Shown here piece by piece: positions 10,571 through 21,286 of a stretch of 64,000 nt of DNA (positions are counted from its first letter, which is position 1; each line of letters starts with the position of its first letter). Source of the DNA: Desulfatibacillum sp. Its GTDB lineage: Bacteria > Desulfobacterota > Desulfobacteria > Desulfobacterales > Desulfatibacillaceae. The position numbers were made by a program, and so were the translations under genes. Below the pieces are notes generated by a model. It saw nothing but the letters and a program-made list of their open reading frames with translations. It was not told where the DNA came from and did no database searches. The DNA lies in NCBI GenBank assembly GCA_016342355.1, contig JAEINP010000004.1, positions 1-64,000 on the forward strand, given 5' to 3'.

Positions 10571-10931
10571 GGGTGCTCCTGCTTGGGGATAATAAAAATA
10601 CATGAGAGCAACTATTCACTAACAATAATCCAAATGAAGCCGGGAAGCAAACCATAGAGCGTGTTGAAGGGAAAAAATCTTCGGGCGGGAAATTGCGCCT
10701 CAATCTTTGCGGGGAAGTCCATGGTAAAAAGCCCGAATCTGTCCTGCCGCCCAGCCGTATGCCTTGCATCAGTCTATTTCCCATTTTCCAATTGATTCCT
10801 TGAAGGGAACCTTTCCCGCGTAGTATATTTTTTGAATGCAATCGTGATCATTAACAAACCGTCGTCAAAGGCGGCAATAACCGCATTAGACGGGAAATCA
10901 GCGGATGGACGGCGCCATCAGGGAGGATGCC
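10571..10931. other. divergent intergenic region between NUDIX and gnd genes
   Basis: About 360 bases without a supported gene, expected to hold both promoters. For the plus strand a candidate is TTGAAG (10800-10805), an 18-base spacer and TATATT (10824-10829), about 100 bases before the gnd start. No clear promoter was picked for the NUDIX gene. Confidence 0.4.
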
Positions 10932-11840
10932 ATGAATATAGGCTTTGTGGGACTGGGAAAAATGGGCGGAGCCATGGTGGAAAGGCTTCTGGTCCGGGGG
11001 CATGACGTATCTGCTTATGCCCGGACACAGGCATCAGTGGACGCCGTCCGGACAAAAGGCGCTTACGGAGCAGACAGCCTGGAGGACTTGGTTGCAAACC
11101 TTCCCTTACCCCGCGTTGTGTGGGTCATGGTTCCGGCCGGAAATGCTACGGAAGCGATTATTCATCGGCTCGCCAACCTTATGGAGCCCGGGGACTGCAT
11201 CGTGGATGGGGGAAATTCTTTTTACAAAGAGTCCATGGCCCACGCCCATGCATTGGAAGAAAGGGAAATCCTTTTTCTGGACGCCGGAACCAGCGGCGGG
11301 ATATGGGGCCTGGAAAAGGGTTATTGCCTCATGGTGGGAGGGACCAGGGAGGCCTTTGACATGGTGCAGCCCATATTCCGGGACTTGGCTCCGCCCGACG
11401 GATACCTGCTCGTTGGGCCAAACGGAGCGGGGCATTTTGTCAAAATGATCCATAACGGCATTGAATACGCCATGCTTCAGGCCTATGCGGAAGGTTTTGA
11501 AATCATGAAGGCCAAAGAGGACTTTGGATTGGACCTGGAAGCCATTTCCCACCTGTGGAACCAGGGAAGCGTGGTCCGTTCCTGGATTTTGGAACTGGCC
11601 GAAAACGTTTTCGCCAAAGAACCGCACCTGGAATCTGTCTGGGGATATGTGGAAGACTCGGGCGAAGGCCGATGGACTGTGGCCGAGGCCATGGAGCAGG
11701 ATGTGCCCGCGCCGGTCATCACCCTGTCTTTGCTGGAGCGATTCCGGTCCCGCCAGGACCAGTCCTTTGCCGCCAAGGTCATTGCCGCTCTCAGGAACGA
11801 ATTCGGCGGCCACAGCATAAGGAGTGCGGAAAATGACTGA
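10932..11840 (+). CDS. gnd: 6-phosphogluconate dehydrogenase, decarboxylating (short type)
   Basis: Oxidises and decarboxylates 6-phosphogluconate to ribulose 5-phosphate. The 302-residue protein has the N-terminal dinucleotide fold (GFVGLGKMG 4-12), the substrate loop DAGTSGGIWG (117-126) and the catalytic GHFVKMIHNGIEY (167-179) with Lys171. Its length fits the short ~300-residue class (YqeC/GntZ-like), which is often NAD-linked, rather than the ~470-residue NADP enzyme. I start at ATG 10932 because GGGAGG lies 6 nt upstream; nine further codons are open upstream. It overlaps the start of zwf by 8 bases, so the three genes gnd-zwf-pgl are one coupled operon. Confidence 0.9.
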   Translation: MNIGFVGLGKMGGAMVERLLVRGHDVSAYARTQASVDAVRTKGAYGADSLEDLVANLPLPRVVWVMVPAGNATEAIIHRLANLMEPGDCIVDGGNSFYKESMAHAHALEEREILFLDAGTSGGIWGLEKGYCLMVGGTREAFDMVQPIFRDLAPPDGYLLVGPNGAGHFVKMIHNGIEYAMLQAYAEGFEIMKAKEDFGLDLEAISHLWNQGSVVRSWILELAENVFAKEPHLESVWGYVEDSGEGRWTVAEAMEQDVPAPVITLSLLERFRSRQDQSFAAKVIAALRNEFGGHSIRSAEND

Positions 11841-13392
11841 CTCCATGCCCGGCCAGGAAGGGATTAAAGTATCTCCAGACCCATGCACCCTTCCCGTTGC
11901 CACCCAGGGAGCAAGGGATTATCCCTTTGTCATGGTTATGTTCGGGGGGGCGGGCGACCTTGCCCGAAAAAAGCTGGTCCCTACCCTGTTTCGGCCTTTC
12001 CGGGACAACCTGCTGGCCGAGAACTTCCGGGTGATCGGGTATTCCAGGACCGGCCTCAGCACGCAGGAATACCGCATGTTGGTTAAAGAATCCGTCATCA
12101 GGCATTGCCAGCACCCCGCCCCGGAGGAATTGGTCGAGCAGTTTGCCAGCCACTTTGAATTCATATCCGGCCATTTTGAAGAGGACGCCAAATATGGAGA
12201 AATCGCCGCAGCCATCCGGGAAGGCATCCCGGGGATTCCCCCTGATGTCACGAGCACCCTTCACTATTTGGCCGTACCGCCGGATTCAGTGCCCCTAATC
12301 ATTGCCAAAATGAAAGAACACGGCTTGGCTGATGGCCCTGGCCGTAACCGCATAATTTTGGAAAAGCCCTTTGGCGCAGACAGACTTTCAGCCCATACGC
12401 TCAATCAAAAGGTGCTGGAGGTCTTTGACGAGAACCAAGTGTTCCGCATTGACCACTATTTGGGCAAAGAAACGGTCCAGAACCTAATGTTCTTCCGTTT
12501 CGGCAATAATGTGTTCGAGCCTTTGTGGAATCGGAACTATGTGGACCACGTGCAAATCACCGTGGCCGAAGATATTGGCATAGAAACCCGGGGAAATTTT
12601 TATGAGCAGGCCGGAGTGGTGCGGGATATTATCCAGAATCACATGCTCCAACTGGTGGCCCACACAGCCATGGAACCCCCAGCCAGTTTTGAGGCGGACG
12701 CCATCCGGGACGAGAAATTAAAAATATACAAAAGTTTCAGAAAGATGCCCCCGGAGTACATTGCACAGAACATGCTGCGGGGTCAGTATGGTCCAGGCAG
12801 ACTCGGCAAAGAGATAGTCCGGGGATACCGGGAAGAGGACAAGGTTTCTCCGGATTCCAAGGCATCCACATTTATGGCGGGCAAGTTCTATATTGATAAC
12901 TGGCGCTGGTCCGGGGTTCCCTTTTATCTGAGGAGCGGAAAACGGCTGCCAAAACGGATTACGGAAATCTACGTGGAATTCAAGCAACCTCCTTTAAAGC
13001 TCATGGGAAGCGCCTGCCAGGAGGCGCCCAACGCCTTATGCCTCCAAATTCAACCGGAGGAATCCATTATACTGCGATTCAACACCAAACAACCCGGTGT
13101 GGATAATCTGCCCTATCCCTCCATGTTGGAATTCAATTACGCCAAATCCTTTAAGGCCGCCACCTACCCCCCCTACGCCCGCCTGCTTCTGGATTGCCTC
13201 CGGGGAGACCTCACCCTCTTTGCAAGGCAGGACGGCATAGAAGCCATGTGGGGCGTGGTGGACCCTGTCATCCAGTTTTGGGAGGAGAATCCCGTCCCGG
13301 ACTTCCCCAACTACAAAGCCGGAACCTGGGGTCCGGACGCAGCCTGCCAGATGATGGACCGAGACAGCAGGCAATGGAGGCTTTTTGAATGA
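11833..13392 (+). CDS. zwf: glucose-6-phosphate 1-dehydrogenase
   Basis: Oxidises glucose 6-phosphate to 6-phosphogluconolactone. 519 residues, with the nucleotide loop GGAGDLARKKL (38-48; the usual GASGDLAKRKL), EKPFG (177-181) and the active-site signature RIDHYLGKE (205-213). The C-terminal (beta+alpha) domain is complete. ATG 11833 is preceded by AAGGAG at 11819-11824, and the start lies inside the last codons of gnd. The stop overlaps the pgl start as ATGA. The first ~30 residues before the nucleotide fold are longer than in most homologues and of low complexity. Confidence 0.93.
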   Translation: MTDSMPGQEGIKVSPDPCTLPVATQGARDYPFVMVMFGGAGDLARKKLVPTLFRPFRDNLLAENFRVIGYSRTGLSTQEYRMLVKESVIRHCQHPAPEELVEQFASHFEFISGHFEEDAKYGEIAAAIREGIPGIPPDVTSTLHYLAVPPDSVPLIIAKMKEHGLADGPGRNRIILEKPFGADRLSAHTLNQKVLEVFDENQVFRIDHYLGKETVQNLMFFRFGNNVFEPLWNRNYVDHVQITVAEDIGIETRGNFYEQAGVVRDIIQNHMLQLVAHTAMEPPASFEADAIRDEKLKIYKSFRKMPPEYIAQNMLRGQYGPGRLGKEIVRGYREEDKVSPDSKASTFMAGKFYIDNWRWSGVPFYLRSGKRLPKRITEIYVEFKQPPLKLMGSACQEAPNALCLQIQPEESIILRFNTKQPGVDNLPYPSMLEFNYAKSFKAATYPPYARLLLDCLRGDLTLFARQDGIEAMWGVVDPVIQFWEENPVPDFPNYKAGTWGPDAACQMMDRDSRQWRLFE

Positions 13393-14150
13393 TCACCAGA
13401 GAAACCAGCCCGGGAAAAACTGTCCTGGTGTTTGATACTCCCGAAGATCTTGCCGTGCATGCAGCCCGTTCCTTTGCGGACTATGCCGCCCAATGCATTC
13501 GGAAACAGGGGAGCTTTTTTGCGGCCTTATCAGGGGGGAAAACCCCAGCCAAGTTTTTCCGGGAATTGGCAAAATTAGGGGAAGAATTTGAATGGGAAAA
13601 AATCCATTTATTCCAGGTGGACGAACGCATGGCGCCTGCGGATCACCAGGACAGCAACCAGGCCATGATCCGGGAATCCTTTGTGGAACCAGCCGGATTT
13701 CCTCCTGAGCATTTCCTCCCTGTGCCCGTACAAATGGATGATGCGGCTCTGGCCGCCCAAGCCTATGAAAACTCAATAAATATGGTACTGGAATCTGTAC
13801 CTTCCCGCCCCAAACGGCTGGATATGATCCTGTTGGGAATAGGCCAGGACGGCCATACGGCATCTCTTTTTCCTGAAGATCCGGAATTTCGGCAAGCATC
13901 TTCCTGGGTGCGGTCCGCCAGATCCGAACATCATGCGCATCAAAGGGTGACCCTCAGCCTGAGCTTTGTCTCAGCCGCCTCAAAGGTTTTTTTCTTGATT
14001 ACTGGTCAGGACAAAGCGGACATGGTTCGCCAAATCCTTCTGGAGACATCCCCGTCCCTGCCCGCTTCATTAGTTTGGAAAAACGCCCAACAGGCTGTCA
14101 TGGCCCTTGACCGAGCTGCGGCCCGTGCCTATCTTCAAATAATGGCTTGA
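13389..14150 (+). CDS. pgl: 6-phosphogluconolactonase
   Basis: Hydrolyses 6-phosphogluconolactone, completing the oxidative branch between zwf and gnd. 253 residues of the glucosamine-6-phosphate-isomerase-like fold: AALSGGKTPAKFF near the N-terminus for phosphate binding, FQVDERMAPADHQDSN, and LLGIGQDGHTASLFP with the catalytic His region. Start ATG overlaps the zwf stop by 4 bases, so translation is coupled. No terminator was seen after it. Confidence 0.9.
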   Translation: MITRETSPGKTVLVFDTPEDLAVHAARSFADYAAQCIRKQGSFFAALSGGKTPAKFFRELAKLGEEFEWEKIHLFQVDERMAPADHQDSNQAMIRESFVEPAGFPPEHFLPVPVQMDDAALAAQAYENSINMVLESVPSRPKRLDMILLGIGQDGHTASLFPEDPEFRQASSWVRSARSEHHAHQRVTLSLSFVSAASKVFFLITGQDKADMVRQILLETSPSLPASLVWKNAQQAVMALDRAAARAYLQIMA

Positions 14151-14299: not shown

Positions 14300-14752
14300 A
14301 TGACCAATTTTAATTCAGTGAATGACATCCTGGATTTCGCCATCAAAAATGAGCAGGAAGCCCAAAAGTTCTATGCTGAACTGGCTGCGGTAGCCACCCG
14401 GTCCGGTTCCAAAGAATTGTTCGAGAGCTTTGTGATGGAAGAAAAACGGCATGAAGAAAAACTCAAAGCTGTCAAGGAAGGCAAGGCCATCGCCAGTGCG
14501 GAAGGCAAAGTGACTGACCTGAAAATCAGCGACTACGTGGTGGACGCTCCTGCCACCCCGGACATGGATTTCCAGAAATCCCTGATCCTTGCCATGAAAA
14601 AAGAAAAAGCCGCCTTTATGCTGTACACCAACCTTTCCAAAAGGGTGGAAGGCGAACTGAAGGATATCTTTTTGGCCCTGGCCCAGGAAGAAGCCAAGCA
14701 TAAACTGTATTTTGAAACCGAATACGACGAACATGTCCTGACCGATAATTAG
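14300..14752 (+). CDS. rubrerythrin-type ferritin-like protein without rubredoxin domain
   Basis: 150 residues forming one four-helix diiron domain: NEQEAQKFY (Glu18, Glu20), MEEKRHEEK (Glu47, Glu48, His51), KKEKAAFMLY and AQEEAKHKLYFETEYD supply the repeated E-x-x-H style ligands of the rubrerythrin family. The C-terminal rubredoxin CxxC...CxxC domain of classic rubrerythrin is absent, so electrons for peroxide reduction must come from a separate donor; iron handling is another option. Start ATG 14300 is set by AGGAG eight or so bases upstream. It is followed by a terminator, so it is monocistronic, and it precedes the metal-efflux operon. Confidence 0.85.
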   Translation: MTNFNSVNDILDFAIKNEQEAQKFYAELAAVATRSGSKELFESFVMEEKRHEEKLKAVKEGKAIASAEGKVTDLKISDYVVDAPATPDMDFQKSLILAMKKEKAAFMLYTNLSKRVEGELKDIFLALAQEEAKHKLYFETEYDEHVLTDN

Positions 14753-14762
14753 GAAAATCTTC

Positions 14763-14791
14763 GGGGAGGGTGCGATATATACACCCTCCCC
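14763..14791 (+). terminator. hairpin after the ferritin-like gene
   Basis: Perfect 10-bp stem GGGGAGGGTG (14763-14772) / CACCCTCCCC (14782-14791), 9-nt loop, starting 11 bases past the stop codon. The following bases (AATATAATCC) are AT-rich rather than a true T run. Confidence 0.6.
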
Positions 14792-14843
14792 AATATAATC
14801 CGCCTTTCCTCATTGCCCTCTTTTCCCCCGCCGCTTTATCCGC

Positions 14844-14874
14844 TTGACAAGGCAAAATGAGCGCTCCATATTAT
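14844..14874 (+). promoter_or_regulatory. promoter of the copper-efflux operon
   Basis: Consensus -35 TTGACA (14844-14849). A -10 can be read as CATATT with a 17-base spacer (14867-14872) or TATTAT with a 19-base spacer (14869-14874); the latter long spacer is the habit of MerR-family controlled metal promoters. An 8-base palindrome GAGCGCTC (14859-14866) sits in the spacer and may be the operator. The assignment to a metal regulator is inference. Confidence 0.5.
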
Positions 14875-14927
14875 ATAAGACTATTTTGGTCCTAATTAAC
14901 TCTTTTTTGCACATCGGAGGTGGCGCC

Positions 14928-15131
14928 ATGGAAGAAAAAACTTTTTCAGTACCTAAAATTTCGTGCGGACATTGCGTGAACGCCATCAAGGAAGAACTGA
15001 ACGAAATGGACGGCGTAACCAGCGTGGATGGCGATCCCGGGACCAAAACCATCAAGGTTCAATGGGAGGCTCCTGCCACGGAAGAGTCCATCCGGGCCAT
15101 GCTTAAAGAGATCAACTACCCGGCCGCATAG
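14928..15131 (+). CDS. copZ: CopZ-like copper chaperone (single HMA domain)
   Basis: A 67-residue heavy-metal-associated domain with the metal site [10 protein letters not shown] (Cys13, Cys16), which here is CGHC where CopA-type domains have CANC. It would carry Cu(I) in the cytoplasm and hand it to the ATPase encoded 17 bases downstream. The start is the ATG after an ATCGGAGGTGG ribosome site; the frame is open 28 codons further upstream, but that part covers the promoter. Confidence 0.85.
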
Positions 15132-15148
15132 CCCCCTGGGAGGCAGAT

Positions 15149-17587
15149 ATGGAACCAGCCAGGATAACCCTGCCAGTCACCGGCATGACCTGCGCCAATT
15201 GCGCCATGAACATCGAGCGGGGGTTAAAAAAGTTGCCCGGCGTTACCGAGGCTTCGGTAAATTTTGCCAACGAGGAAGCCTCCTTTCGCCTGGACGCTTC
15301 CCAGACCAAGCCCCAGGACGTGATCAACAAGATCCAAAGCCTTGGCTTTGGGGTTCCCACGGCAAAGATTGACTTGCCCATCACGGGTATGACCTGCGCC
15401 AATTGCGCGGCCAACCTGGAACGGAGTTTGAACAAAAAGGTTCCGGGGGTGATTTCCGCCACCGTGAATTTTGCTTCGGAACGGGCTTCGGTGGAGTACA
15501 TCCAGGCCCTGGCCGGGGTGGACGACATTGTGGCGGCGGTTGCCAAGGCTGGCTTTGAGGCCATCCGTCCCCAGGAAGGCATGGAGCCGGAAGACGCCGA
15601 GGCGGCGGCGCGGGCGGCGGAAGTCAAGGACCAAACCCGCAAGTTCCTGGTTGGCGTTGTGTTCGCCCTCCCTTTGTTTTTAATCAGCATGTCTCGGGAT
15701 TTTGGTCTGCTGGGACCATGGAGCCACCAGCCCTGGGTCAACTGGTTGTTTCTGGCAATGGCCACGCCCGTGCAATTCTACACAGGATGGGACTATTATA
15801 TAGGCGGCATAAATAGCCTGAAAAACAAAAGCGCCAACATGGACGTGTTGGTGGCCATGGGCTCTTCCACCGCCTATTTTTACTCTCTGGCCTTGCTGAT
15901 TTTTCCGGTCCTGGGCCAGCATGTGTATTTTGAAACATCCGCCGTCATCATCACCCTCATTAAACTGGGTAAATTGTTGGAAGCCCGCTCCAAGGGCAAG
16001 ACCGGCAAGGCTATCAAGGAACTCATGAGCCTGACCCCGGACACAGCCATTCTTGTGGTCGGGGACGAGGAAACTGAGGTTCCCGTATCCCAGATAAAGG
16101 TGGGAGACACAGTCCTGGTGCGTCCCGGTACAAGGATGCCCGTGGACGGAAAGGTGGTGTGGGGTTATTCCGCAGTGGACGAATCCATGCTCACCGGCGA
16201 ACCCCTGCCTGTGGACAAAACCGAAGGAGACCCGGTAGCCGGTGGCACGGTGAACGGCCAAGGCCTGCTAAAGGTGCAGGCCACCCGAGTGGGCAGTGAA
16301 ACCGCCCTGGCCCATATTATCCGCATGGTCCGGGACGCCCAGGGCAGCAAGGCGCCCATTCAGGCTTTGGCGGACAAGGTGGCGGCGGTTTTCGTGCCGG
16401 GCGTCATTGGTTTGGCCGTGCTCACCTTTGTATTGTGGTGGGCCATTGGCGGGGAATTCGTTCCCGCCATGATCCGTTTTGTTGCGGTTCTGGTCATTGC
16501 CTGCCCCTGCGCATTGGGGTTGGCGACTCCCACGGCCATCATGGCCGGAACAGGCAGGGGGGCCAAATCCGGCATTTTGTTCAAGGACAGCACCGCCCTT
16601 CAAATTGCTACCAAACTGGACGTGGTGGTCCTGGATAAAACCGGCACCATCACCATGGGCAAGCCTGCGATTTCCGACATCGAAGCAGTAGCGGATCTCA
16701 GCCGGGACGAGGTACTGATCATGGCGGCCAGCGTGGAATCCGGGTCTGAACATCCCCTGGGCAGGGCCATTGTGGATCACGCCAAAAGCAAGGGCCTAAA
16801 GCTCAGCCCCCTGGAAGATTTCCAGGCCCATGGCGGCAATGGAGTATCCGGGACTATTGGCGATGCCCGGGTGATTGTGGGCAAGCCCGGCTGGGTCAAG
16901 GGCGAGGGCGTGGATATGGCAAAGGCCGAAAAAGAAATCCTCCACCTTGCCAGCGAAGGTAAAACCGTCATGGCCATGGCTATGAAGGGTGTTCTTGTGG
17001 GGCTGGTTGCTGTTTCCGATACCCTCAAGCCGGAGTCTGCCGAAGCCATTAAACAGCTTCACAGCCAGGGCCTGGAAGTAATCATGCTTACCGGGGACAA
17101 TCCCCAGACAGCCCAGGCAATCGCCTCCCAGATTGGCGTGGATAGCGTTTTTGCAGAGGTAATGCCGGACCAAAAAGGGGACAAGATCAAAGAACTCCAG
17201 AGCCAAGGCAAAATTGTCGCCATGGTGGGCGACGGGATCAACGACGCCCCTGCCCTGGCCATTGCCGACCTGGGAATTGCCCTGGGGACGGGCACGGACG
17301 TGGCCATGGAAACCGCTGACGTAGTTCTGGCGAGCGGCAAGCTGACCGGTGTGGTCTCGGCCATTGCCCTGAGCAGGGCCACCATGCGCACCATCAAGCA
17401 AAATCTTGTATGGGCCTTCGGGTACAACGTGGTGCTCATTCCCCTGGCTGCCGGAGCCCTGGCGGGCTTTACCTTTTTACCCGAGTTCCTGAGACATTTA
17501 CATCCCATATTGGCGGCCCTTGCCATGGCCCTTTCCAGTATATCGGTGGTAACCAACAGCCTGACCCTTTACAGGGCCAAGGCGTAA
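15149..17587 (+). CDS. copA: copper-exporting P1B-type ATPase
   Basis: 812-residue P-type ATPase that pumps Cu(I) out of the cytoplasm. Two N-terminal HMA domains carry GMTCANC (12-18 and 80-86). After eight expected membrane helices come the actuator motif TGE (349-351), the transmembrane copper site CPC (452-454, [11 protein letters not shown]), the phosphorylation site DKTGT (496-500), the P1B His-Pro pair SEHPLG (535-536) and GDGINDA (694-700). All catalytic residues are present. It sits 17 bases after copZ and 19 before the TVP38-like gene, in what looks like a single six-gene unit. Confidence 0.95.
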
Positions 17588-17606
17588 TTGAAAGCGGGGC
17601 GGAGGG

Positions 17607-18350
17607 ATGAAAACCGGAGTACTTAAGAAAATTGCCGTTGCAGGGGTGTTGGCAGCTGCGGTCGCAGCATTTTTTATTTTTGACCTCGGCCAATATGTTC
17701 GTCTGGAATATATAAAATCATCCCAAGAGAACTTTGCCGCTCTCTATGCCCAGCACCCCGTGATGGTAATCGGGGCGTACATGCTCATTTATGTCTTGGT
17801 GACAGGCCTCTCCCTGCCAGGGGCGTTGGTACTTACCCTGGCGGGCGGCGCCTTGTTCGGCTTATTGACAGGCGTAATTATTATTTCTTTCGCCAGTACG
17901 ATAGGCGCTACTCTGGCCTGTGCGGTATCCCGGTTTCTTTTGCGGGATTGGGTGCAGGCAAAAATCGGACATCGCCTGGAAAAACTGAACCAGGGCATTC
18001 AGACAGAGGGGTCCTTTTACCTCTTTACCCTGCGGCTGGTTCCCGCCTTTCCCTTTTGGATGATCAACCTTGCCATGGGCCTGACCAAAATGCCCCTGTT
18101 TACTTTTTACTGGGTTTCCCAGGTGGGCATGCTTGCGGGAACCATCGTGTTTGTGAACGCAGGCAAGGAGTTAGGCAAAATAGACTCCCTGTCTGGAATT
18201 TTATCCCCTGGCCTGATTATTTCCTTTCTCATTCTGGGGGTCTTTCCCATCACCGTAAAAAAACTGTTGGAACTCTACCGCAGGCGCTCGGCTGTTCCTA
18301 TTTCGGAACCGGCGCCCCGGGAACAGGTTTCCGGCAAGAAGGAAAAATAG
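17607..18350 (+). CDS. TVP38/TMEM64-family (DedA/VTT-like) membrane protein
   Basis: 247 residues, integral membrane. One N-terminal helix (~8-26) is followed by the SNARE-associated/VTT domain (~50-200), recognised by LPGALVLTLAGGALFG, SRFLLRDWVQ and RLVPAFPFWMINLAMGLTKM. The C-terminal tail is basic. Members of this superfamily include lipid scramblases and transporters, so a role in moving lipid or a small solute is possible; the substrate is not known. It is 19 bases after copA and one base before the flavin reductase gene. The pairing of this membrane protein with a MerA-like flavoprotein recurs in many bacteria, from general knowledge. Confidence 0.85.
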   Translation: MKTGVLKKIAVAGVLAAAVAAFFIFDLGQYVRLEYIKSSQENFAALYAQHPVMVIGAYMLIYVLVTGLSLPGALVLTLAGGALFGLLTGVIIISFASTIGATLACAVSRFLLRDWVQAKIGHRLEKLNQGIQTEGSFYLFTLRLVPAFPFWMINLAMGLTKMPLFTFYWVSQVGMLAGTIVFVNAGKELGKIDSLSGILSPGLIISFLILGVFPITVKKLLELYRRRSAVPISEPAPREQVSGKKEK

Positions 18351-18351
18351 C

Positions 18352-19815
18352 ATGGCTGATTATGACATTGGTATCATCGGGGGCGGGGCAGGCGGGCTGA
18401 CTGTTGCTTCGGGCGCGGCCCAATTTGGCGCCAAAGCCCTTCTTATTGAAAAAGAAGCCCAACTGGGGGGTGATTGCCTCCATTTTGGTTGTGTGCCTTC
18501 CAAAACCCTCATCAAATCGGCCAAAGTTTTTCATTACATGAAAACCGCCCAGGCTTTCGGCCTGCCCGGGGTGGATCTCCCACCGGTGAATTTTTCCCAA
18601 ATCGCAGCGCGGATTGCGGGGGTCATTGCCGCCATACAAAAGCACGACTCTGAAGAGCGTTTTTGCTCCCTGGGGGCCAAGGTCCTGTTCGGGGAGCCTG
18701 TGTTTACCGATGAGCACACCGTGGACCTGGACGGAAAAAAAATTACGGCGGATAATTGGGTGATCGCCACCGGATCGTCTACCATGGTCCCGCCCATTCC
18801 CGGGTTGTTGGAGTGCCCTCACCTGACCAACCGGGATATTTTCTCTCTGGATGCCCTGCCCGAATCCATGATTGTCCTGGGTGGCGGCCCCATTGGCATA
18901 GAAATGAGCCAGGCTTTCGCCCGTTTGGGTTGCCAGGTGACCGTGGTGGAGCGCAACACCCAGATTTTGGGTCCCGAAGACGCAGACATGGCAGCCATTG
19001 TCCAAAATGTATTGGAGCAAGAAGGCCTAACCTTTCGTATGGGCTGTTCAGCGGAAGAGGTCAAGGACTTGGGGAACCAGCGCCAATTGACCATCCGCAC
19101 TCCCGAAGGCAAAACAGAAACCCTGGTCGCCCGGGAAATCCTGGTGGCCCTGGGCCGAAAAGCCAATGTGGAGGGACTAAACCTGGACGCCCTGTCCATC
19201 AAGCATTCTTCCCGGGGCATACCCGTGGACAAACGATGCCGCACCAAACACAAGCATATTTACGCGGTGGGCGACTGCAACGTGGGCCTGCAATTCACCC
19301 ACGTGGCCGGATACGAAGGAGGCATCGCCCTGTCCAACGCCATCCTTCACCTGCCCAGAAAAGCCGATTACACCTGGACGCCCTGGTGCACCTATACAGA
19401 TCCGGAAATCGGCTCCGTGGGCATGAATGAAAAACGAGCCAAGGCGGCCGGAATCGAAACCAAAATTTTTATCGAGGAATTTTCCGACAATGATCGGGCC
19501 TTGGCCGAAGGCCAACCCATAGGCCAAATCAAACTGGTGTTGGATGAAAAGGAAAAACCCCTTGGCGTGCAGGTGGTGGGGCCGGATGCGGGCAACATTA
19601 TCAACCAATGGGTTGGGATATTGAACGGCAAGGTTAAGCTGTCCACTGTAGCCGGGGCCATTCATCCCTATCCCACCCTGGCTGAAATCAGCAAAAGGGT
19701 GGCTGGCGATATCTACGCGCCCAAGCTCTATTCGGAAAAGGTGAAAAAAACCCTGAAATTTTTCTTCAACCTCAAAGGTCGGGCCTGTTCCCTGGAAGCC
19801 TCGGATGATTGCTGA
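18352..19815 (+). CDS. MerA/lipoamide-dehydrogenase-like FAD disulfide oxidoreductase
   Basis: 487 residues. N-terminal FAD fold IIGGGAGGL (8-16), redox-active disulfide GGDCLHFGCVPSK (Cys42, Cys47), a second dinucleotide fold IVLGGGPIGIEMS and the dimerisation domain. At the point where lipoamide dehydrogenase has HAHPTLSE with its catalytic His, this protein reads HPYPTLAE: the His is a Tyr, as in mercuric reductase. There is no N-terminal HMA domain. Two cysteines close the chain (Cys479 and the final residue Cys487), loosely recalling the C-terminal Cys pair of MerA but eight residues apart. The family is annotated variously; metal-ion or disulfide reduction is more likely than dihydrolipoamide oxidation. 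It directly abuts the next gene with no gap. Confidence 0.85.
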   Translation: MADYDIGIIGGGAGGLTVASGAAQFGAKALLIEKEAQLGGDCLHFGCVPSKTLIKSAKVFHYMKTAQAFGLPGVDLPPVNFSQIAARIAGVIAAIQKHDSEERFCSLGAKVLFGEPVFTDEHTVDLDGKKITADNWVIATGSSTMVPPIPGLLECPHLTNRDIFSLDALPESMIVLGGGPIGIEMSQAFARLGCQVTVVERNTQILGPEDADMAAIVQNVLEQEGLTFRMGCSAEEVKDLGNQRQLTIRTPEGKTETLVAREILVALGRKANVEGLNLDALSIKHSSRGIPVDKRCRTKHKHIYAVGDCNVGLQFTHVAGYEGGIALSNAILHLPRKADYTWTPWCTYTDPEIGSVGMNEKRAKAAGIETKIFIEEFSDNDRALAEGQPIGQIKLVLDEKEKPLGVQVVGPDAGNIINQWVGILNGKVKLSTVAGAIHPYPTLAEISKRVAGDIYAPKLYSEKVKKTLKFFFNLKGRACSLEASDDC

Positions 19816-20517
19816 ATGGAGTTGAACACCGCCCTGATTTTTTTCATGCGCTACCCATCGCCCGGAAAGGTCAAAACCCGGCTGGCCGCAGGGATAGGGG
19901 ATCATGCGGCCTGCGAACTGTATTCCTGCTTTATCCGGGATATACTGCAGACCACGGATAGCACAGGCCTGGACGTTCATATTTTCGCTTGGCCGGCCCA
20001 TGAATTGGACCATGTGAAAAACTGGCTGAAAAAAGAGTATTTGCTTTTTCCCCAAAATGGCTCTGATTTGGGCGAGAAAATGAAAAACGCCTTTGAACAG
20101 GTATTCGAGCTTGGGTATTCCAAGGCATTGCTCACGGGCAGCGATATCCCGGACCTGCCTGCGCAAGTAATCCTTGAAGCAGAGCAATGCCTGGATACTC
20201 ATGATTGCGTGTTAGGGCCATCCAGGGACGGCGGATATTATCTCGTAGGATTCAACAAAAAGAGGTTTTGCCCGGCTATTTTTTCAGGCCCCCAATGGGG
20301 AACCCATCAGGTGTTGGAGCAGACCCGGGCTATTCTGAAAAACAATCGGATAGCCACCGCCCTGGCGACCCCGTGGCGGGATGTGGATGAAGTGGATGAT
20401 TTAAAGGCGCTGCACGCCCGGCTGACAGACAATATCACCCGGGCGGAGGCCACCCGGGCCTGCCTGGAAAACTTGCAGGTCCAACGTCCGAATTTTTTTA
20501 CCCGGGACCAATCGTGA
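19816..20517 (+). CDS. DUF2064 / TIGR04282-type glycosyltransferase-like protein
   Basis: 233 residues with the nucleotidyl/glycosyltransferase A fold of the family named for arsenosugar biosynthesis: N-terminal FMRYPSPGKVKTRLA, LLTGSDIPDLP, LGPSRDGGYYLVGF and a WRDVDEVDDLKAL tail. It starts immediately after the preceding stop codon and its stop overlaps the GTG start of the next gene. No ArsM methyltransferase or radical SAM arsenosugar enzyme is nearby, so arsenosugar synthesis itself is not supported; the pair may glycosylate another acceptor. Confidence 0.85.
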   Translation: MELNTALIFFMRYPSPGKVKTRLAAGIGDHAACELYSCFIRDILQTTDSTGLDVHIFAWPAHELDHVKNWLKKEYLLFPQNGSDLGEKMKNAFEQVFELGYSKALLTGSDIPDLPAQVILEAEQCLDTHDCVLGPSRDGGYYLVGFNKKRFCPAIFSGPQWGTHQVLEQTRAILKNNRIATALATPWRDVDEVDDLKALHARLTDNITRAEATRACLENLQVQRPNFFTRDQS

Positions 20518-21188
20518 AGATTTCTGTTATCGTTCCCTGTCTCAACGAAGAAGCCGCCATAGAGGCGGCCCTGGCATCCTGCCGCCCGGGCGCGCATGAA
20601 ATCATTGTTGTGGATGGGGGAAGCCGGGATCAGACCATCGTCCGGGCCAGCGGCCATGCCGACATGGTCCTAAGCACCCGGCCTGGCCGGGGCTGCCAGC
20701 AGGCCTTGGGCGCCAAACACGCCACGGGTGACGTGCTTCTGTTTCTTCATGCCGACACCCTTTTACCTCCGGGGTACAATAAGACTATTCAATCTCTGCT
20801 GAAAAAAACAGACGTGGCTTTCGGGGCATTTTCCTTGGGTGCGGACCTGCCGGGGCGGGCCATGGCCCTTATCTGTTTTGGCGCCAACCTAAGGACCAGG
20901 GTGTTGGGAATGCCTTACGGGGATCAGGCGATTTTCGTCAAAGCGGACGACTACTGGCAGGCTGGGGGCTTTGGAGCCATGCCCATTATGGAAGACGTGG
21001 ATCTGGTAAAAAAACTATCCAAGGTGGGAAAATTCAAAATGGCCAGGGCATCGGTGAAATCCTCAGCCCGGAGGTGGCGACAGGATGGGCTTCTGCGCCG
21101 CACCCTCGGCAATTATTCCCTCATACTCCGACACCTTGCAGGAGCCACGCCGGAAGATCTTTTTCAGCATTACAAAAACACGCGGTAA
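20514..21188 (+). CDS. family 2 glycosyltransferase, TIGR04283-type
   Basis: 224 residues of a GT-A family 2 enzyme: ISVIVPCLNEE at the N-terminus, VVDGGSRDQT (nucleotide-sugar site), LFLHADTLLPPG with the DxD-like HAD position, and a C-terminal MPIMEDVDLVKKL typical of the TIGR04283 branch. The GTG start overlaps the upstream stop (GTGA), so it is translationally coupled. It is last in the run beginning at copZ. It is normally found beside the DUF2064 protein, which suggests that the two act on the same molecule. Confidence 0.85.
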   Translation: MKISVIVPCLNEEAAIEAALASCRPGAHEIIVVDGGSRDQTIVRASGHADMVLSTRPGRGCQQALGAKHATGDVLLFLHADTLLPPGYNKTIQSLLKKTDVAFGAFSLGADLPGRAMALICFGANLRTRVLGMPYGDQAIFVKADDYWQAGGFGAMPIMEDVDLVKKLSKVGKFKMARASVKSSARRWRQDGLLRRTLGNYSLILRHLAGATPEDLFQHYKNTR

Positions 21189-21253: not shown

Positions 21254-21286
21254 AAAAAAAGCGGGAGGGAATGGCTCCCTCCCGCT
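21254..21286 (-). terminator. rho-independent terminator of the acyl-CoA synthetase gene
   Basis: Perfect 11-bp stem AGCGGGAGGGA (21260-21270) / TCCCTCCCGCT (21276-21286), loop ATGGC, followed on the minus strand by seven Ts (21260-21254). It lies 17 bases past the stop of the minus-strand gene and may also stop the converging plus-strand operon. Confidence 0.8.

Follow-up and report, generated by a model that had tools for sequence, protein, structure and literature searches.

Lipoamide dehydrogenase (Lpd) and GR carry a catalytic histidine at the position where MerA has a tyrosine, and MerA ends in a vicinal cysteine pair. GpgS glycosylates a small acceptor. ArsS-type arsenosugar clusters are assembled from the families TIGR04167 (ArsS), TIGR04169, TIGR04282 and TIGR04283. 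For DedA membrane proteins of the COG0398 group, Todor et al. (2023, PMC10127716) give a fusion to PF07992/PF02852 as the commonest. The locus considered here lies in a 64,000-nucleotide stretch of DNA from Desulfatibacillum sp. (the window; GCA_016342355.1, contig JAEINP010000004.1, positions 1 to 64,000), in which six genes encode the chaperone CopZ, the ATPase CopA, a TVP38-like membrane protein (VTT), an FAD disulfide reductase (FADred) and two transferases of the families TIGR04282 (T82) and TIGR04283 (T83). Our preferred reading, which we hold with a probability of roughly 0.45, is that two older units, copZ-copA and VTT-FADred-T82-T83, have been joined in this genus, the latter being an ArsS-independent module that combines a reductase with a small glycoside and is reached by read-through from the copper genes. 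No description of this cluster was found among the matches listed in literature searches on arsenosugar genes, TVP38, DedA and copper clusters, which covered titles and abstract starts, subscription journals mostly lying outside.

The first-pass annotation of the window had described the six genes, their order on the plus strand and gaps of 17, 19, 1, 0 and -4 bases, all of which we confirm. One other genome of the genus (G001, locus L080) was available for comparison; its gene order, zwf-pgl-rbr-copZ-copA-VTT-FADred-T82-T83, is identical, and the six genes are separated by 14, 30, 4, 3 and -4 bases. None of the six reading frames is interrupted in either genome, and the proteins are 55-85% identical, with CopA at 85%. 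dS ranges from 0.88 to 1.85 across the six genes (about 1 for copA), and dN/dS is 0.09 for copA, 0.11 for copZ, 0.14 for VTT, 0.08 for FADred, 0.21 for T82 and 0.14 for T83, values that point to purifying selection on all six genes. Because G001 keeps the order, the short gaps and the low dN/dS, we do not take the six-gene arrangement to be due to chance. The features expected of a single operon (same strand, short gaps, conservation) are found in both genomes, and we infer that the six genes are co-transcribed as one transcription unit.

Across 96 genomes, T82 and T83 occur together in 56, T82 alone in 3, T83 alone in 4 and neither in 33. FADred was scored as present when a protein of either type matched the window protein at E up to 1e-70, and proteins of 55% identity or more were called window-type. 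T82 and FADred are both found in 51 genomes, T82 only in 8, FADred only in 5 and neither in 32 (p = 6e-13), and the association persists in a logistic model with genome size and completeness (p = 5e-12). Restricting the test to genomes with a completeness of at least 90 leaves it in place (45 with both, 3 with FADred alone, 7 with T82 alone, 19 with neither; p = 3e-9), as does restricting it to the 66 genomes without ArsS above cut-off (27, 3, 5 and 31 in the same order; p = 3e-10). FADred varies in the same direction as T82 in all seven families in which T82 varies (two-sided sign test 0.016). The new point would be that the transferase pair is tied to the reductase across the order independently of ArsS.

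The copper genes behave differently outside the genus. By its domain content, the CopZ-CopA pair is an ordinary copper(I) export cassette: a copper P1B ATPase above its curated cut-off adjoins an HMA chaperone at a gap of 17 bases. The first-pass annotation had proposed to look for co-occurrence of copA with the TVP38-reductase-glycosyltransferase module, and this tie was not borne out. We inspected 84 VTT-centred loci, made up of 80 stretches, mostly best VTT matches, and four loci first taken for T82, with up to about 7 kb per side. FADred was present in 62 of them, ArsS in 11, T83 in 11, T82 in 8 and copA in 1, the same-genus locus L080; because many stretches end at contig ends, these counts are lower bounds. 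In the set of 62 loci centred on T82, the window excluded, copA was again confined to L080. A general copper link for the other four genes is not supported, and copper would be a genus-level addition. VTT and FADred form a single open frame of about 720 aa in many relatives, and since copA is nearly absent from VTT loci and VTT and FADred are often fused, copZA appears to have joined a VTT-FADred pair that is older.

The single same-genus copA in both sets of loci, together with the ordinary nature of CopZ and CopA, would fit a chance adjacency at the level of the genus, in which the four-gene module is transcribed together with copZA but has no function in common with it. Under this explanation one has to account for an order and a tight copA-VTT spacing (19 and 30 bases) that persist at 85% identity of CopA and a dS of about 1. 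We consider such an adjacency quite possible, though we would tentatively decide against it.

The promoter scan on its own is weak evidence and lies little above chance (7 promoter-like sites versus 4.4, sd 2.1, in shuffled sequence); support for the copZ site comes from its conservation in G001. A separate promoter before the VTT gene, which the first-pass annotation had named as evidence against a shared unit, was not detected in this sigma-70-only scan, in which the nearest plus-strand site upstream of VTT lies within copA (17058-17085, 9 of 12 matches). Terminator-like sites numbered 22 versus 12.5 (sd 3.7) in shuffled sequence, and the two strongest are on the minus strand outside the six genes. 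That no terminator stands between the genes holds in so far as all plus-strand sites in the unit fall within reading frames, but an intragenic stem in VTT remains: the best T tail among these sites belongs to a stem of 5 pairs at 17655-17668, 48 bases past the VTT start, so that some attenuation is possible there.

The reductase had been called MerA-like, which is correct as to its FAD disulfide family and its Tyr440. All 65 aligned rows keep the CxxxxC pair, Glu445 and Tyr440, and the tyrosine aligns with the catalytic-histidine position of Lpd, as in MerA. A C-terminal cysteine in a GRAC-type tail is found in 18 of the 21 window-type rows and is aligned in none of the 44 rows under 50% identity. 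Tyr440 and this cysteine could speak for a mercury or other soft-metal reductase operon of the MerA type combined with copper export, an explanation that we regard as improbable, given that the 487-aa protein reaches 349.6 bits against a TIGR02053 cut-off of 454.45, has no vicinal cysteine pair at its C-terminus and carries no HMA domain. On cut-off and C-terminus, the identity of a true mercuric reductase was rejected. Because the residues named above are kept and the C-terminus of MerA is missing, FADred is taken as a disulfide-type reductase with one MerA-like feature and not as a MerA. As for the membrane protein beside it, an identity as UptA-type undecaprenyl-phosphate transporter was rejected (NF052604, 20.7 versus 250 bits). 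In four loci of other genomes (L166, L167, L171 and L175), VTT genes 63-70% identical to that of the window stand among gnd, zwf and/or pgl, with no FADred within the stretch examined.

T82 matches a single solved structure, 3cgx (E 1e-48). For T83, a model predicted from 4 sequences (pLDDT 85) has a fold like those of WrtF (TMq about 0.67) and GpgS (TMq about 0.60); the locus search with T83 gave 13 mostly distant loci and was used for structure alignment only. Both transferases retain nearly all strongly conserved family residues in the two genomes of the genus, and T82 lies within 1 kb of T83 in 38 of 63 T82 loci. An FtrB-like gene occurs within about 3.3 kb of T82 in 6 of the 62 T82-centred loci (L057, L065, L095, L106, L109 and L112), four of which also hold a glutaredoxin-like gene, one member of each family having been scanned; these neighbours again indicate thiol redox. 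In seven loci (L061, L062, L065, L067, L071, L095 and L109), a putative CooS-like family is encoded upstream of T82 on the opposite strand.

Arsenosugar genes accompany the same families in some relatives. Of the 62 loci centred on T82, 12 share a radical SAM family and 10 share an AhpD-like family; one radical SAM member is above the ArsS cut-off and one AhpD-like member above that of TIGR04169. ArsS is above cut-off in 30 of the 96 genomes and TIGR04169 in 26, and the two are at most 1 kb apart in 26 of 33 ArsS loci. Of these 33 loci, 12 have T82 within 5 kb of ArsS, 8 have window-type FADred at that distance and 5 have FADred of the other type. Over half of the above-cut-off ArsS matches in relatives hold one in-frame TGA, which fits the selenoprotein form of the family. 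Pentose-phosphate genes and a second VTT type (VTT2, 29-36% identical to the window VTT) recur in such neighbourhoods, as in G024 (FADred-VTT2-gnd-zwf-AhpD-ArsS-pgl-T82), G033 (FADred-gnd-zwf-VTT2-ArsS, the FADred frame having two stops), G039 (gnd-zwf-VTT2-T82-T83) and G082 (FADred, interrupted frame,-zwf-VTT2). G053 has VTT, a gnd-like gene (31% identity), FADred, AhpD and ArsS in this order, with T82 and T83 about 3 kb further. zwf is above cut-off in only 17 of the 96 genomes; 11 have both zwf and ArsS, 19 ArsS only, 6 zwf only and 60 neither (p = 0.003). Ten of 18 zwf loci, including the window and its genus mate, have one or more of T82, T83, ArsS, TIGR04169 and FADred no further than 15 kb away. 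The remaining eight are without such a neighbour, one of them (G061) adjoining a VTT gene.

The genome of the window itself, rated 100% complete, has no ArsS (best match 44 versus 300 bits), no match to TIGR04169 and no arsenosugar-type ArsM (AsSugarArsM; best match 106 versus 400 bits). The known arsenosugar route is therefore incomplete here. It had been stated that no ArsM or other arsenosugar gene is present; this is true of ArsM in the stretch, but a generic ArsM is encoded on another contig (347.9 versus 263 bits), just behind a putative ArsR-like frame, and T82 and T83 themselves are above the cut-offs of models named after arsenosugars. With these two scores, the generic ArsM behind its ArsR-like frame and the same genes standing beside ArsS in some relatives, one might propose that the unit makes an arsenosugar-like compound via another C-As forming enzyme, the ArsM encoded elsewhere in the genome. 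We give little credence to this proposal, in view of the three families lacking above cut-off in a genome rated as complete and of the FADred tree. There, the window sequence groups with that of G001 (100/99) and falls outside a set of 29 rows, supported at 98/98, to which the 8 ArsS-adjacent rows of the tree belong; rows without an ArsS label are not all demonstrably ArsS-free, several stretches being short. The locus therefore probably did not arise by pruning of an ArsS cluster in that clade, and an origin by loss of ArsS inside the ArsS-linked clade is not favoured. In age, the ArsS-free module may match or exceed the ArsS-linked form.

In our preferred reading of two joined units, the CopZ chaperone and the CopA pump would form the first unit, a copper(I) export cassette with its own promoter. 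VTT and a membrane-bound FADred, presumably driven by NAD(P)H, would work as one piece, and of the two transferases, both predicted to be soluble GT-A enzymes, T82 would activate a sugar and T83 would transfer it to a small acceptor, giving a glycoside. In ArsS clusters of some other genera, FADred and the AhpD-like protein probably keep arsenic trivalent for ArsS. Since ArsS and the AhpD-like protein are absent here, the product of the module is most likely another small glycoside, and FADred would run on thiols or soft-metal thiolates. Copper stress would raise transcription of copZA, and read-through would lift the module too. The joint pathway for a glycosylated metal or metalloid compound that the first-pass annotation had proposed is supported in part, by the tight conserved unit with its conserved promoter-like site, the co-occurrence of T82/T83 with FADred and the ArsS neighbours in relatives, but not in its general copper tie. 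A glycosylated metalloid remains a reasonable lead, because the transferases and the reductase stand beside ArsS in some relatives.

Several points weigh against this reading. The copper linkage comes from two genomes of one genus, and T82 and T83 evolve faster than the other genes (dN/dS 0.21 and 0.14). Physical adjacency of FADred and T82 is much weaker than their co-occurrence: window-type FADred is within 1 kb of T82 in 3 of 30 loci, two of which are the window and its genus mate, and T82 elsewhere neighbours FtrB-like and glutaredoxin-like genes instead. The co-occurrence tests were run without a species tree and their p values are uncorrected for multiple tests; no more than 16 FADred candidates were scored in each genome, and an FADred cut by a contig end (G064) counted as absent. 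In two of the seven families with variable T82, the T82-negative genomes are only 65% and 75% complete. Finally, a link of COG0398 to aerobic metabolism is reported by Todor et al. (2023, PMC10127716).

A broader idea, which we consider unlikely, is that TIGR04282, TIGR04283 and the VTT-linked FADred are the core of an undescribed redox system based on a glycosylated small molecule. Arsenosugar clusters would be one use of it, the "arsenosugar" names would be too narrow, and in this genus it would stand under a copper-export promoter. Such a system might resemble those of mycothiol or a glycosylated cofactor, in that the transferase pair would build the molecule, the disulfide reductase would recycle it and the pentose-phosphate genes would supply NADPH. 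Should the co-occurrence have a functional basis, the role of the two "arsenosugar" transferase families is wider than their names suggest, and the locus offers a way to the glycoside and to what the VTT-reductase fusion acts on. 32 of the 59 TIGR04282-bearing genomes (of 96) have no ArsS above cut-off, yet TIGR04282 goes with the reductase among ArsS-negative genomes as well, and automatic annotation of TIGR04282 and TIGR04283 as arsenosugar enzymes may mislead.

The coordinates of the six genes, their upstream neighbours and the associated signals are listed in Table 1. The unit and copZ had been placed at 14844, which does not hold, as this position is an upstream TTG whose bases are part of the TTGACA promoter-like site. 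The likely copZ start is the listed ATG, which is preceded by GGAGG and corresponds in alignment to the ATG at which the G001 copy begins. A convergent acyl-CoA ligase gene follows downstream of the unit. Upstream, the gnd product is of a short type (about 300 aa), and the rubrerythrin-like protein is 82.7% identical in G001.

Table 1 Features of the copZ-copA-VTT-FADred-T82-T83 locus, numbered by window position.
Feature	Position	Strand	Support
gnd, 6-phosphogluconate dehydrogenase, upstream	10905..11840	+	PF03446 and PF00393 above cut-off
zwf, glucose-6-phosphate dehydrogenase, upstream	11824..13392	+	TIGR00871, 569 vs 400.6 bits
pgl, 6-phosphogluconolactonase, upstream	13389..14150	+	PF01182, 206 vs 27 bits
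Rubrerythrin-like protein (rbr), upstream neighbour	14300..14752	+	PF02915, 54.1 vs 22.8 bits
Promoter-like site before copZ, TTGACA - 17 - CATATT	14844..14872	+	10/12 matches; conserved in G001
Imperfect palindrome right after -10, putative operator	14876..14894	+	Partly conserved in G001
copZ, copper chaperone (HMA domain)	14928..15131	+	PF00403, 54.4 bits vs cut-off 24.8; under NCBIfam cut-offs
copA, copper P1B-type ATPase, two HMA domains	15149..17587	+	TIGR01511, 621.3 vs 397 bits; HMA, 2 stretches
VTT/TVP38-like membrane protein	17607..18350	+	PF09335 (VTT_dom), 76 vs 33.9 bits
FADred, MerA/Lpd-like, 487 aa, C42/C47, Y440, E445, C-terminal GRAC	18352..19815	+	
T82, TIGR04282/DUF2064 CofC-like transferase	19816..20517	+	197.7 vs 134 bits
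T83, TIGR04283 GT-A family 2 glycosyltransferase	20514..21188	+	226 vs 182 bits
Hairpin between unit and convergent acyl-CoA ligase gene	21260..21286	-	T tail on minus strand

The palindrome behind the -10 element, which we take to be Rrf2/IscR-like, gained no regulon support from a genome scan, which returned 52 matches versus 127 for the reversed control. It was thus rejected as a regulon operator, and no regulon is claimed. Fifteen of the 52 matches in this genome (G000) share nearly the same sequence (TAA, T or C, AGCAATTTGGTAT, one variable base, A) and are scattered across many contigs; they are a dispersed short repeat. A strong GC-rich hairpin at 14761-14793, between the rubrerythrin-like gene and copZ, has a T tail only on the minus strand. 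A defence system was rejected as an identity for the last four genes, which have no PADLOC match at E up to 0.001, and a known RNA element was rejected for the window, which has no Rfam match at gathering score.

Among described proteins, T82 is matched by PDB 3cgx, a putative nucleotide-diphospho-sugar transferase, and the modelled fold of T83 resembles WrtF and GpgS, from which it differs in sequence (19-25% identity). FADred shares with MerA the FAD disulfide reductase family, the CxxxxC pair and a tyrosine replacing the catalytic histidine; it differs in falling under the TIGR02053 cut-off and in having neither the vicinal C-terminal cysteine pair nor an HMA domain. With the fusion of COG0398 DedA proteins to pyridine nucleotide-disulfide oxidoreductases, as given in PMC10127716, the locus would share the joining of VTT to FADred, which are adjacent here and fused in many relatives, whereas here they are two separate genes. 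ArsS-type arsenosugar clusters (TIGR04167, TIGR04169, TIGR04282, TIGR04283) are resembled in T82 and T83, both above cut-off, and in the company of VTT, FADred and pentose-phosphate genes, which accompany ArsS in some relatives, with gnd, zwf and pgl lying upstream here; the genome of the window differs in having no ArsS, TIGR04169 or AsSugarArsM above cut-off. Like other CopZ-CopA cassettes, the locus begins with an HMA chaperone and a copper P1B ATPase, but here four extra genes follow, in an arrangement found in this genus only.

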